A stretch of DNA of 64,000 nucleotides from Alternaria dauci (taxonomy: Eukaryota; Ascomycota; Dothideomycetes; Pleosporales; Pleosporaceae), in the NCBI RefSeq assembly GCF_042100115.1, contig NC_091274.1:3381197-3445196 (forward strand), in the 5' to 3' direction. Positions within the stretch are counted from its first letter, which is position 1. Every line of letters begins with the position of its first letter. Below are positions 6,001-61,900 of the stretch, piece after piece. The translations under genes and the position numbers were made by a program. Under the pieces are notes generated by a model that saw nothing but the letters and a program-made list of their open reading frames with translations, made no database searches and was not told the origin of the DNA.

Positions 6001-9000
6001 TGTTTTTCTATTCGTAAAACGAATACACATTCTTTTTCAATAGGACAAAATGACGACGTTTATTTAATAGACGGTATAAAACAGTATTTTGAAATATCAA
6101 ATAAAGTTCGTAACCCTTATGGTAACTTCTTTTTTATAGAGGTATACAAGAAAGAGGTATTAGCAAAAATAGTGGCACATTGTACTAACTATCCTTTGTT
6201 GGGAGAAAAGTTAGAGTCTTTAAAAAAATTTAGAGCTTGCTGTGTTCTTTAGTAGGTGTCGTGTTGTCTTGTCACCATGAAAAATTACATACGTTTTTCG
6301 GTAAAATTATTAATTTTGCTAACGGTGAAGTCTAGGCCTCTATTGGCCATTTAAAAATATTATTAATAAAACAGATTTTCACTTACTTTTATCTACATAT
6401 CTACGAGGTATTTTTATTAATAATGATGGTCGTAATTATATATATGAATAAAATATTAACAACAAGAGAAAATAAGGGGTTATTTTACAATTCTGCATTA
6501 AAGACTAGATCGTATTCTGATGGTAAAAAAAGTAACTCTTTCCCTCCTAATTTTTTTCTAGTAATTTCATTGAAATTACGTCGAAAAAAATAAGGGGACC
6601 CTTCCGAGACAGGGTCCCTAATCCCCCGTGAGGGAATAAAGGGAAGAGTATTAGATCCTCATTGAGTAACTGGATTAGTAGATGCTGAAGGTTCTTTTAT
6701 TGTTTTTATAAAATTAAATCCAAATAACAGTAAGAATCTAGTACGGCAAATACAACTGTCTTTTGAAGTATCTTTTCATATTAAAGATATAGAATTACTC
6801 TATAAATTAAAATCCTTTTTTCTCTTTTTTTTTTTCTTTTGCTTAAATCCACTACAAACATGGCAAAAGAAAAAAAAAAGAAGGAGAAGCTGGTACGATT
6901 TTTATTCCATCAACTAGAAAAGATGCTAGATTAAAAATAACAGGATTGAACGAGATAGTTAATTTTATAATTCCTCATTTTAAACAGTACCTTTTACATG
7001 GTATGAAAAAAATAGATTATGATCTATGATCTGAATGTGCAGAATTGTTACAAAGTAAGCAACATTTACAAGAGAAAGGGTTAAATAGAATATTATCAAT
7101 AAAATCTGTACTTAATAATGGATTATCTGATAAATTAAAAGCTCTTTTCCCTTCTGTAATAGCTATAGATAGACCTGTTTTGGATGTTGCCAATATTCCA
7201 TTAAATCCTAATTATGTCAGTGGGTTTACTAACTTTTTTTTTCATATATCATGATATATGAAAAAAAAAGTAAAGGAGACGGTTGCTTCACTGTAAATAT
7301 TTCTTCTAATACTAAGCAAATTACTGCTTATTATATTATTGAGCTACATAAAAGGGAAGTTCCTTTATTATCAAGCATACAAAAATTTTTTGGAGGGGTG
7401 GGTTCTACAAATATCGCATTAAGTAGAAATACCGCTCGATTTTCTATAAGTAAAAAATCAGACTTGATAAATAAGGTATTGCCTCATTTTGATGCACATA
7501 AATTGGAAGGTAATAAGCTTAAAAATTATCTAATCTTTAGAGAAATTGTTCTATTGCTTGGTTCTAAAGCGCATTTAACTCAAAAGGGGTTTGATAAAAT
7601 AAAACTTCTTAAAGAGGGTTTAAATAATTAAAGTAGATAATTTATTAGGAGTAAAATATATAAAGACGATTATATGGCGTATATATACTTTACTTATTAT
7701 TTTAAGGCGGATAATAAGAAAGAGCGTGCTAGATAATACCGTGGAAACCAAAGATAATTTATTTATTACTATATTTTGGGTTTTTCTTGGGTTTGTCCTT
7801 ATGTGTTTTCTCAATTACTTTTTTTTGCATATATCATAATATATGCAAAAAAAAAGTTAGGAAAATATAAGGGTCTCCCCATGTAAGGTAATACCGTGGA
7901 AACCAAAGTGAATAAATTTATTCTCGAGTAGGATCCGTAGAGACTAAACGTGACAGTCGAAAGTTTATTAAGTTAAATCATTAGATAAGTTATAGTCCGA
8001 TCCACTGCGTGAGCAGTGTTGTATGTTAATAAATGAGCAACTTAATTGACCTACTACGTAGTTGCTCAATTGGGCCTTAATAATCTTTCAGATTATTTCG
8101 CATTTGGCTGTATGCTGGAAACCATGTTCTTAGGCTGTTGTTTACTATGTATATCATATTATTATCTTTTAAAAATAGATGCCTCTAGAAACTCAAAATT
8201 TCTAACTATACATAGTCAAAATAACAATAAACCTGTATTTTTAACAAATACGGATATACAATCAGCAGAAAACTGTAAAGGATTCTCAGAGACTACACGC
8301 CAAATATCTGATTCAAAAGGTAAAGATCTTTCAAATAAAGAATTTTTCAAAAGATTAGCTGGTATTATAGACGGTGATGGTAACTTTGATATTAGAAATG
8401 TTAATTCTAAGATCGTTTTAAAAACTATTAGAATTAAATTGCATAACAGAGATATCAGAATATTAAGTTACATTCAAAATATGTTACATATGGGTAGAAT
8501 TAGATCTGATAAGAATAAACCACACTCTATTTGAATTATAAGTAAAAAAGAGGAAATGTTATTCTTAATTAATAATATTAATGGTTTAATTAGACTAAAA
8601 GTTGTAGGATTAAAAAAATCTTGCGATTATTTAGGTATAGCTTATAAAGAAGCAAATTACAATATTGAAGCTAACGACCCTTATTTAGCAGGTTTAGTTG
8701 ACACAGATGGTACTGTTGTATATAACTATGCTGGAAATAGAATAGAATGTAACTTAGAATTTGAAAATAACGAGTTTAGTAGTAAACTAAATTTAGATAA
8801 TGTAATACCGAATTATAAACCCGCTGTTTTACTTAGAAAATCTCATAACTCTATATCATATAAATACCAAAACGTGAAAGGTATGGTATTCTTATACGAA
8901 TATTTCATGAAAAATAGACTATATTCAGATTTTAAATTCTATAGAATATCAAAAATTAAAAAGTTTATTGAAATAAGAGAATTTAAAAATGAACCTAAAG

Positions 9001-58919: not shown

Positions 58920-61900
58920 AATGTCAATACAGAATACCAGCTTCTAATCCTAAATGATGATTATTTGTTAAATGATATGCTAATACACGTCATAGACCAA
59001 CAGCTAAAAATGCTGTACCTATCATTACCGCGTCTATCTTTACTTCAGCATATCGAACAAGTTATACGTGTTTAACTTTTATAGTTATTACATATATATG
59101 TACTAACTCGCAAACCTTATAACTCCGATTTAGCTAGGACGTAAAGTTATTTCCTTATTTCTAAGGAAGACTGAATACACCTTAATTACAGAAGAGAAGA
59201 TAGAGTCGAAATATTTAAGATCTATCTCCTTCTATAACAACCGCCATCTACTCGATGCGCTTTTCCTTATTAAGAAATTAATAAAGGTTAGTTCCGCGAT
59301 AACCCATTTAAGTTTCCTTAATACAAATAAATTTTTACCTCACCCATTATGATTAATAATGGCACTTATTAGACTTTTCACTATATAAGCTGGTATTATT
59401 GTCTTTAGGGCTTCCCCGGAGTTTGGCGGTTTAGTATAAGCCTATAATTGAAAATTTACTTCTTAAAAAGTACAAGTACCAAAAGGGAGTTATTATACTT
59501 TCATATCCTTGTTGCCACATTTTTGCCTTTTTCATTCTGCTTTTTGATTTAATTAATTAAACAAAAAAAAACAAATAGGGCATGTAAGGAGTCCGTAATT
59601 CCACTCTCTGCTTACTGCAAAGGGTAAAAGAAAAGGTGTCAAACCCTTAAAATACTTACTATATCCCTTTATTCATCTTAGATTTTATTGGACAAACCAA
59701 GTCAAATCCTTCTTTGGTTAAATGATCCTTGGCTTTTATTATTTTGGCTACTTTACACCAAGCATCAAAATCTTTGGATTTTACACCTCTTATGTTGAAT
59801 TCACGGAAAAACGGCATAATTTTTTCATAATTGCCTGCAAAATTCATACATTCAAAATATACCGTAGTTCGGTTTGCAGAGGTTGAACGGTATGCACCGC
59901 AACCAAAAAAATCCACGAAACTACTAATTAGTGATGAATCCCTACTATGCTGAGATATACTAAATACTAATCTTAAGTAAAATTTAGAAGAAGATTTGTT
60001 TTCAGTTATCGCAAAACAACCATCTCCGGAAACAAAACCCGCCATTCACTGTCCAACTTTCATCCATTGGGTGCTACCTGGCTAACTTTTTTTTTTGTTC
60101 ATAATTATGAACAAAAAAAAGTAAGTAAGAGGAATTTCATAATTGACCGAAGACTTAGCTTTAGCAAGAATTTGCATACTTTCAACTAAAGGTCTTAATG
60201 TTGGCACAGTATCAGGGAAAGCAGCCTTTAGTTCATCGTTTAAACCCAGATTAATAGAAGCTTTAAGAGACAAAATTTTCTGTAACCCTTTCATTGTTAA
60301 ATGTTCCTTTGTATTAATAATATCTACAACGGATTTAAAGAGAAGAAAATCTGCAAGCTTTTGAGTAATTAGAGGATATTTAATAAAGTGAGGAATAATA
60401 ACAGTAGTTAACTCTTCTATAGAAGATACGTAGTACCCACAGTTATTTTTCCCCTCTGTTATTCTCCCTATACCCCCAAAATAAGCTTGAATTTCTTTTA
60501 AAAGCGGCAAATCTCGAGAATGAAGATGGATATAAAAGATATATTCTATATTTCAAGGCAGTTGAGTTATTTTAGATTTAGATTTTCTAACTCTAATAGA
60601 AAAACAACCTTCTGCGAACTTTTTTTTTAATATATCATGATATATTAAAAAAAAAGTTAGACAAATCCTGTAATAAACCAAGGATCTAATTGGAAATTTA
60701 GTGGACCTAATGGTAGTAAGTTTTTTTTGTCATTACGAGAAGTAAATGTAAAAAAAGATCTAGAACTATTATACTTTTTTACACTACTTTTCCTGTCCCA
60801 ATGGGAAGATGAATGTACAATAATTGTTATCGTAAGGGCTCCTTATCCCTTACCTTCCCTTTCTTTCAAAAGGGTTCAGACTATGTCATCAATCAATAAA
60901 TGATTGCAGGGTTTTCGTGGTAGGCTTATTGTAAATAAAGTACTCACCTACTAGTCGTTGAACCTTCATATATTCCTTTTAATTTTATTTAATATATGCT
61001 TGGCTGCATATTGTCCTACATAAACACATATGAATGGTGAACGAGGAGTTCCATGCAATTTACCCTGTTTTCTGTCAACTCTATTCAATAATGGTATCAA
61101 ATTTAATCGTGTAATTTTTATGGGGAATACCTGCTAATAAACAATTTTTAAGAATTTTACTAGGTATGTTAAGATTTAAGCTACAGTCTGATATACTAGT
61201 AAAATATTGTACCTTACCATTACTATCTTCTACTTTTATTTTAAAAAATTTCGACACTAATTTATCAGTACCTCTTAAAAATAAAATTCCCTCTTTTACT
61301 TCATAAAGACTTGGCAACGATAATAGATAATTTAACTTTTGCTCCATTAACGCTTTATTTTGATCATAGTTTGTAAGAAAATCAGGATTTAATCTAAAAT
61401 TATTCATATTAGATTTAATGAGATGAATTAATTCTTTACCTTCATCTAAAGTATGATACCCATAATAAGTAATTTTAACTATCATAGATCAATCTTCAAA
61501 GTCTAAAGATTTTTTAGTCAACATACCTTTAGAAAAAATAGGTATTATTCTGTTCATTAAAATATTTATATTATTTATTTCTAATATTACAGAACCAGCT
61601 GACTTTCTATCGGATGTATATAAATTACCATGTTTTAAGTTATTTAAAATACTTTTAAATAATTCTAATTCTTTTATATGATTTTCATATTTTATTTTTG
61701 GTTTTAGTTTATTTGAACTAAAAGTCGCATCTCCTTCTGTGAATCCTATTAATCAGTACTCATCTATAACCATATTTTCTCTAGCTTTAGAGTTTTGATT
61801 TATAAGTTTCATATCATGATAACATTGTAAGATATCTATTTTACCTTTAAAAGTTAAATGTTTTTTATCTATTAATAAATGAACTGCTTTTTTAAAATTC

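Follow-up and report, generated by a model that had tools for sequence, protein, structure and literature searches.

The window analysed here, a stretch of 64,000 nucleotides (nt) from Alternaria dauci (contig NC_091274.1, positions 3,381,197 to 3,445,196 of the forward strand), contains four near-identical hairpins with AT arms, here called family A, each of which splits a LAGLIDADG motif of an intron-encoded endonuclease at the same codon. Three more copies occupy this codon elsewhere in the same mitochondrial unit. In our view mobile hairpins with AT arms have probably invaded endonuclease genes in recent times, with a preference for this site, and have most likely inactivated them.

The window represents the last 64 kb of a 3.445-Mb contig (C3) in an assembly of 34.9 Mb and 10 contigs. 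The nuclear part of this contig runs into a TTAGGG array at its end, behind which AT-rich DNA follows; the junction of the nuclear and the mitochondrial part lies at about 3325.5-3325.7 kb. Because the first 16.4 kb of the AT-rich stretch are repeated at its end (99.994% identity, no mismatches, one gap; the duplicated end is window 47598-64000), we infer that this stretch is a fungal mitochondrial circle of about 103,092 bp which was misjoined to the nuclear contig. Positions in this mitochondrial (mt) unit are obtained by adding 39092 to the window position.

An earlier note on this DNA had reported a 41-nt palindrome at one and the same motif codon of four LAGLIDADG genes from cox1, nad4, nad1 and cox3 introns. 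The four palindromes were indeed located at about 7231, 23409, 43090 and 60617, and exon matches on both sides of each gene assign the hosts to these introns. The palindromes at window 7232-7271, 23412-23451 and 60617-60658 are perfect; the one at 43092-43130 is perfect save for a T run of nine against an A run of eight. Once the motifs are aligned the insert positions coincide as had been claimed: the insert begins directly behind the third codon of GGNTTTNNN, and its right end stands in all four genes one base short of the (A/G)(E/D)G codons. The inserted stretch has 43 nt and replaces 2 nt, which gives the net gain of 41 in each gene. The cox1-intron endonuclease (7231..7273, + strand; GFT / GDGCF) and the nad1-intron endonuclease (43091..43133, +; GFT / AEGNF) carry the element in their second motif, the nad4-intron endonuclease (23410..23452, +; GFV / AEGCF) and the cox3-intron endonuclease (60617..60659, -; GFV / AEGCF) in their first.

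The three further motif copies lie outside the window at mt 35667(+), 20942(-) and 20685(-). By hand assignment the seven copies fall into seven genes, two of which are adjacent and perhaps a mosaic. The element consists of a T run, a core of 16-18 nt and an A run, in this order, with arms of T8-9 and A8-9; disregarding run lengths, the arms are perfect in six of the seven palindromes. The copies come in two variants according to the base pair at which the core meets the runs: C-G in two copies (window 7231 and 43091) and T-A in five. The predicted RNA folds of the two variants have energies of -14.2 and -17.0 kcal/mol. Cut at the host bases, the junctions read GGGTTTACT/43/AGGAGACGG at window 7231, GGGTTTGTA/43/CGCAGAAGG at 23410, GGGTTTACT/43/CGCTGAAGG at 43091, GGATTTGTC/43/CGCAGAAGG at 60617 (-), GGATTTATA/43/AGCTGAAGG at mt 35667, GGGTTTATA/44/CGCAGAAGG at mt 20942 (-) and GGATTTGCA/43/AGGTGAATC at mt 20685 (-). 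Thus the junction is the same in all seven cases: 2 nt give way to 43 nt, or to 44 in one copy, with a net gain of +41 in six copies and +42 at mt 20942. The ends of the unit are TT..TT in four copies, AA..AA in two and TA..TT in one.

The family-A core ATATATCATGATATAT occurs in eight exact copies, and in eleven if one mismatch is allowed, in the one 103-kb mitochondrial unit. Seven of these eleven copies sit at the third-codon site of GFxX(A/G)(E/D)G. For about 47 such codons (a rounded figure) in 103,092 bp the binomial probability of this is P ~1e-21, and P ~1e-16 if placement is confined to about 23 x 900 bp of endonuclease DNA, both calculated as if the copies were independent though one may derive from another. 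These values show a non-random placement, not seven separate events. An eighth copy seems to split the catalytic motif of a member of another endonuclease family: a family-A relative with one core mismatch and a net gain of +40 (window 40136..40177, +) separates, according to a two-frame reading, the Y from the G in the YIG of a GIY-YIG endonuclease. The frame behind it is open. Pfam instead obtains its GIY-YIG match there by reading the downstream frame back across the element, where it meets one TAG and one TGA. The proposal that the element targets the motif is thus supported by the seven of eleven copies at one codon, by the hand-read copy at the GIY-YIG motif and by other kinds of insert at or beside the codon in relatives of the nad1-intron gene, which are described below. 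In four of the seven motif cases the match to the PF00961 profile starts at profile position 7 right behind the element. In the nad1-intron gene it starts at position 17, behind a second hairpin, and directly behind the copies at mt 35667 and mt 20942 no match at threshold was found.

Insert-free homologues show what the sites may have looked like before; presence or absence at homologous sites was judged from proteins only, and orthology from identity. The nad4-intron gene has such a homologue in P0001 (318/353 identical, GFVDAEG), the nad1-intron gene in P0220 (198/206), P0201 (208/221) and P0121 (301/326), all with GFTSAEG, and the cox3-intron gene in P0237 (326/350, GFVDAEG). The most similar species-named homologue of the nad4-intron endonuclease is P0050 from Plenodomus biglobosus (91% over 48% of the query). 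Codon X encodes D, S and D in the homologues of the nad4-, nad1- and cox3-intron genes, and only its last base is left here. Two bases (GA, or AG in the case of the serine codon) were therefore probably lost while 43 were gained. A pattern search of the mitochondrial unit found 28 uninterrupted motifs, in which codon X is GAN in 24 and ACG, ACA, AGT or TCC in the rest. At the seven copies codon x is ACT, GTA, ACT, GTC, ATA, ATA and GCA, and the retained base is C or A; the retained C agrees with the homologue residue (D, S, D) in all three genes compared. LAGLIDADG enzymes leave 4-nt overhangs and GIY-YIG enzymes 2-nt overhangs, so a loss of two bases would suit the latter; we do not use this as evidence.

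At otherwise invariant columns the nad4-, nad1- and cox3-intron copies carry 4, 4 and 6 unique changes, compared to 3-58, 1-28 and 8-30 in their relatives (P0012 was excluded from the nad4 set). There is no sign of a long relaxed evolution, which suggests that the inserts are either recent or tolerated. The exact 26-nt core had no matches in viral contigs, and the degenerate element none in bacterial and archaeal genomes. Three stretches of viral contigs fitted a pattern for P0001-like DNA, none of them coding for a relative, and they were dismissed. Every match listed for the nad4-intron region in its own genome falls within the mitochondrial stretch of contig C3, and these searches gave no empty-site DNA. 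Truncated homologues that start just behind AEGCF (P0005, P0008, P0022 and P0030) were considered as candidates for inserts in fungi elsewhere and rejected, since gene calling with TGA as a stop would probably yield the same.

Homologues from elsewhere point to the same region of the gene. Departures from the reference were counted along the whole alignment at a threshold of 60% identity, using only proteins of at least 121 residues. For the nad1-intron gene the best 120 of 462 homologues were taken; 116 new ones were tested, and 73 of them reach 60% identity. Sixteen of these 73 depart before the C-terminus, five of them at residues 207-210, which correspond to the second motif (P0137, P0205, P0218, P0122 and P0156, representing at least three different sequences). 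The alignment of a sixth relative, P0221, extends to residue 217, yet this protein differs right after GF. The number of departures expected at residues 207-210 is 0.19, which gives P = 1e-6 for independent and uniform departures and 4e-4 for three of twelve distinct events, twelve being a rounded figure. If departures before about residue 110 went unseen owing to the length filter, the expectation is 0.29 and the two values become 7e-6 and 0.001. For the cox3-intron gene 32 of 117 tested homologues pass the threshold. Seven of these depart: one each at residues 191 and 300, two at 212, and three at 237-242. Of the last three, P0248 and P0250 already diverge directly behind GFVSG, and P0243 does so behind the GDGCFA that belongs to the second motif. 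The pair at 212 consists of P0251 (91% identical to the cox3-intron copy here) and P0262 (84%), which end in peptides that fit a second hairpin of this gene, family C, at the same place after IPLT, and P0237 (93%) and P0246 (91%) are without that hairpin. This distribution reflects either a repeated insertion at one site or an old insertion which was lost in some lineages. In P0037, GFTEA is followed by a stretch like the peptide in front of other endonucleases (SPKALV..KARLTKV) and then by a new endonuclease, possibly an intron in the motif.

The earlier note had also described the coding downstream of the elements as open, and this holds to the gene end for two of the four genes. The cox1-intron endonuclease (6669..7631, +) comprises a hairpin-split domain 1, a linker and, behind the element, domain 2 up to the stop. 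In the nad4 case the exon end and the N-terminal part of the endonuclease share the upstream frame (22420..23409, +), and the downstream open part contains two LAGLIDADG_1 domains (23453..24308, +). The other two genes are each interrupted there by a second hairpin and are open again behind it. In the nad1-intron endonuclease (42470..43528, +) the frame is broken again 27 nt downstream by a family-B hairpin of 35 nt (43159..43193, +), a clean insertion between S and LDK, both of which are kept. The frame of the cox3-intron endonuclease (59659..60732, -) covers the second domain and most of the first, its upstream start lying beyond the family-A element; it is open as far as a family-C hairpin in the linker (60082..60123, -; core GTTCATAATTATGAAC), which is in frame and ends in TAG, and then continues in the same frame. 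Decay of the downstream halves was looked for and not found, the hairpins being the sole lesions of the four genes.

The endonuclease genes of the whole unit were compiled from 52 domain matches, which after removal of nine repeats from the duplicated end left 43, grouped by hand into 23 genes. Fifteen of them are uninterrupted and free of in-frame stops from one outer domain end to the other; two of these were checked on one domain only, and one has an in-frame hairpin near its N-terminus. The remaining eight are interrupted. Further lesions are found in four of the eight interrupted genes and in none of the 15 others (Fisher P 0.008), which argues against tolerance of the inserts. The gene at mt 35206-35666 contains two stops and the one at mt 40682-41403 a one-base frameshift; at mt ~20190 the second motif has been lost, and behind mt 20942 the second domain is displaced. 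In the LAGLIDADG gene at mt ~20190 (- strand) only the stretch of the second motif is gone and the frame is changed, which could be a deletion around a former insert.

In the explanation that we favour, family A would belong to the short mobile hairpins known from fungal mitochondria. It is an AT palindrome of about 43 nt, and several families with other cores occur beside it in this genome. Its preferred site would lie in the DNA that encodes the LAGLIDADG active-site helix, behind codon x and ahead of the final base of codon X. This preference may arise from a cutting or copying step that recognises the conserved DNA of the motif, the enzyme possibly being a mitochondrial endonuclease, and the break would be repaired from another copy of the hairpin. 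The frameshift, together with immediate stops in the T-A variant, would then inactivate the endonuclease at its active site. The flanking parts would look intact because the insertions are, as proposed, recent.

Several points weigh against this explanation. The cutting enzyme and the cut itself are putative, and the empty sites are known from proteins alone. The count of departures at the codon includes related sequences and is biased by the length filter and by the restriction to the best 120 homologues. Departures at the first motif of the cox3-intron gene are invisible, as such short proteins were filtered out, and for the nad4-intron gene none of the 14 homologues, out of 120, that reach 60% identity shows a C-terminal departure. 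The lesion classes were assigned by hand from translations, and the genes are few. That the four genes of the window have no lesion other than hairpins would fit continued function as well. Judging from their peptides, two other lineages share the family-C hairpin seen in the cox3-intron gene; if it was inherited from a common ancestor it would have been borne for a long time with an intact domain behind it, and this would fit tolerance.

The earlier note had offered ectopic gene conversion as one way in which the element could have spread. One endonuclease would have gained the hairpin by chance, and copying between conserved motifs would have distributed it without any targeting step. The identical position in seven of seven copies and the identical net length in six would follow from this, as would the two sub-lineages, C-G (n = 2, both after ACT) and T-A (n = 5), and a related process is reported for the yeast element GC42, where flanking substitutions are regarded as a putative co-conversion tract (PMC4478555). 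However, codon x and the base that follows the insert vary from gene to gene, and in the three genes compared they agree with the uninterrupted homologue; conversion tracts would accordingly have had to break off no more than 1-3 bases away on either side. In 30-nt flanks the 21 pairs of interrupted genes share 6-20 matches on the left and 7-22 on the right (the latter the best of small offsets), which does not exceed the resemblance among 378 uninterrupted pairs (means 14.8 left and 15.6 right, maxima 24 and 23). Moreover, one gene of this unit holds a different hairpin at this motif, and in relatives the motif is taken by still other sequences. Because gene-specific bases stand 1-3 nt from both ends, copying together with long flanks appears unlikely; copying of the insert only, or very short tracts, would be compatible with the data. 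Conversion is thereby weakened and we consider it an unlikely explanation as a whole. Insertion at random, with the pattern due to ascertainment or to dead genes being the only ones that tolerate inserts, would account for the hairpins in intergenic and intron DNA and elsewhere in endonuclease genes. The concentration at one codon, improbable even within endonuclease DNA, makes it very improbable, unless the copies are products of conversion. An assembly or homopolymer error comes to mind since the contig is misjoined and runs of T9 and A9 are error-prone. It is hardly credible, as the 16.4-kb duplicate, including the copies at 48219 and 60617, agrees save for one indel elsewhere, the stops within the T-A variant are present at a net gain of +41 as well as +42, and family-C-like peptides occur in two homologues from other sources.

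Other explanations would restore the reading across the insert. The ribosome might skip the hairpin, as with the byps of Magnusiomyces mitochondria, so that the element would be harmless. Coding resumes behind all seven copies, hairpins are the sole lesions in four of the eight interrupted genes, the end triplets are identical in three of the seven copies (AAC/AAC, TTA/TTA and TTA/TTA), and three lineages may have carried the family-C hairpin for a long time. The end triplets differ, however, in the four other copies, although imperfect matches are reported for byps as well (PMC5009743). Byps are said to involve an unused A-site codon (PMC5009743); here one copy starts with TAA, and the would-be A-site codons of the other six are ordinary ones (TTA 231, AAC 42, CTT 47 and TTT 188 of 3317 codons). 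Byps are described from 12 of 15 genes of M. capitatus (PMC5009743), whereas none of 39 listed hairpins overlaps a core-gene exon match (Pfam, 7,917 bp including the duplicated cox3 parts; P 0.044), a coverage that omits nad3, nad4L, nad6, atp8, atp9 and small exons, and a list that holds at least three palindromes of other kinds. Three T/A-armed hairpins beyond this list likewise lie outside the core-gene matches. Four of the eight interrupted genes carry other lesions, and the +42 copy contains in-frame stops. The suggestion in the earlier note that the hairpin is skipped in translation thus finds no support, and we regard it as distinctly improbable. A related reading, for which we see even fewer prospects, makes the hairpin a hyperparasite that is specialised on the active-site helix, skipped in expression and carried along by intron homing; if true, bypassing would serve as a means of spread in a filamentous ascomycete. 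Finally, a -1 slippage on the T9 or A9 run could restore the frame and yield an endonuclease longer by 14 residues. By hand reading, a -1 shift on the T run does join the open frames in the six +41 copies. Neither the +42 copy nor the YIG copy (+40) could be rescued in this way, and the 14 residues would enter the active-site helix, so that we think slippage exceedingly unlikely. The site-preferring invasion remains our preferred explanation.

Further members of family A lie at other places in the window. One element is in frame and open in the N-terminal part of another LAGLIDADG reading frame (5442..5488, +), one lies just 3' of cob, which is on the - strand (48214..48253, +), and a relative with one mismatch is found 3' of the cox1-intron endonuclease (7819..7854, +). 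Hairpins of other kinds also occur at or near endonuclease domains. A family-E hairpin (T11-CTTTTGC..loop..GCAAAAG-A10; 6825..6879, +) breaks domain 1 of the cox1-intron endonuclease, and another, different from family A in sequence, sits at a LAGLIDADG motif at mt ~21541 (-; GFS..REGSF). An imperfect hairpin of about 105 nt (1943..2048, +) stands directly behind GFSDADA in one more LAGLIDADG gene, in which a single base also shifts the frame. A further family-E hairpin lies at window 47873-47923 (mt 86965, - strand), within what may be the anticodon region of a sequence like a transfer RNA (tRNA). A further hairpin family with an ATTAAT-repeat or a ATTATTTATCTAGATAAATAAT core is present at mt 14651, mt 71463 (window 32371) and mt 19863; two of these copies have the flank CCCGACC in common, and one lies behind KKLHL, close to the C-terminal end of an endonuclease. 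Two matches each were obtained for the 3' part of cox3 and for its 5' part (window 58029-58175, 58867-59028, 63645-63998, mt 1609-1893), and a hairpin at window 58184 is nine bases away from the more altered 3' copy.

In yeast, LAGLIDADG frames are known to be broken by GC clusters. Family A shows three properties of a mobile hairpin: it is shorter than 100 bp and forms a hairpin, it occurs in dispersed near-identical copies, and it is present or absent at homologous sites, the latter as judged from proteins. Its closest counterparts are found in Annulohypoxylon stygium, for which 44 polymorphic insertions of 12-106 bp, 31 of them with hairpins, were described among six isolates (PMC6140425). 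Six of them lie in LAGLIDADG_1 or GIY-YIG domain regions, and the insertions as a group were proposed to hinder endonucleases and introns (PMC6140425). Like family A, these insertions are short (mostly 30-60 bp), for the greater part hairpin-forming and in several cases multi-copy; they are present or absent between isolates. Unlike family A, which takes one active-site codon seven times, no repeated use of the same codon is described in the available part of that paper (PMC6140425). Palindromic A/T microsatellites with variable runs, present or absent between Fusarium tricinctum and F. avenaceum, were proposed to be mobile (PMC7218506). They share with family A the AT palindrome and the mononucleotide arms; however, their order is (A)7-12, a spacer of 2-4 nt and (T)9-11, the reverse of the T run-core-A run found here, and they are reported from intergenic regions, tRNA clusters and a region of a large variable open reading frame (PMC7218506), whereas family A is often inside endonuclease genes. 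Yeast GC42 is likewise a palindrome of about 40 nt that is held to be mobile, with short direct repeats at its ends and altered neighbouring bases, and intron endonucleases were proposed to help GC clusters move (PMC4478555). These clusters are GC-rich and flanked by AG or ACT, in contrast to the T and A runs of family A; GC42 is mostly intergenic (82 of 89 positions), and the text available describes no preference for an endonuclease codon (PMC4478555). The byps of M. capitatus resemble family A as short inserts in mitochondrial frames whose length need not keep the frame and behind which coding resumes, and differ in that they are located in essential genes and skipped, with an unused codon (PMC5009743), while family A touches no core exon match and has ordinary would-be A-site codons in six of its seven motif copies.

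The kind of element is therefore already known, and the repeated use of one active-site codon was not encountered in the text available from the literature surveyed. No report of a hairpin at the LAGLIDADG active-site codon was recognised by title or start of the abstract among the literature matches listed, which is not a proof of absence. In the literature surveyed fungal mitochondrial hairpins are described as intergenic or scattered; a codon-specific family would provide a target that can be defined and a mechanism open to testing. Such a family would also be an identifiable cause of the inactivation of homing endonucleases, through which introns may become fixed. As other sequences break the same codon region in relatives of the nad1-intron gene, the question can be addressed in many fungi with data that already exist.

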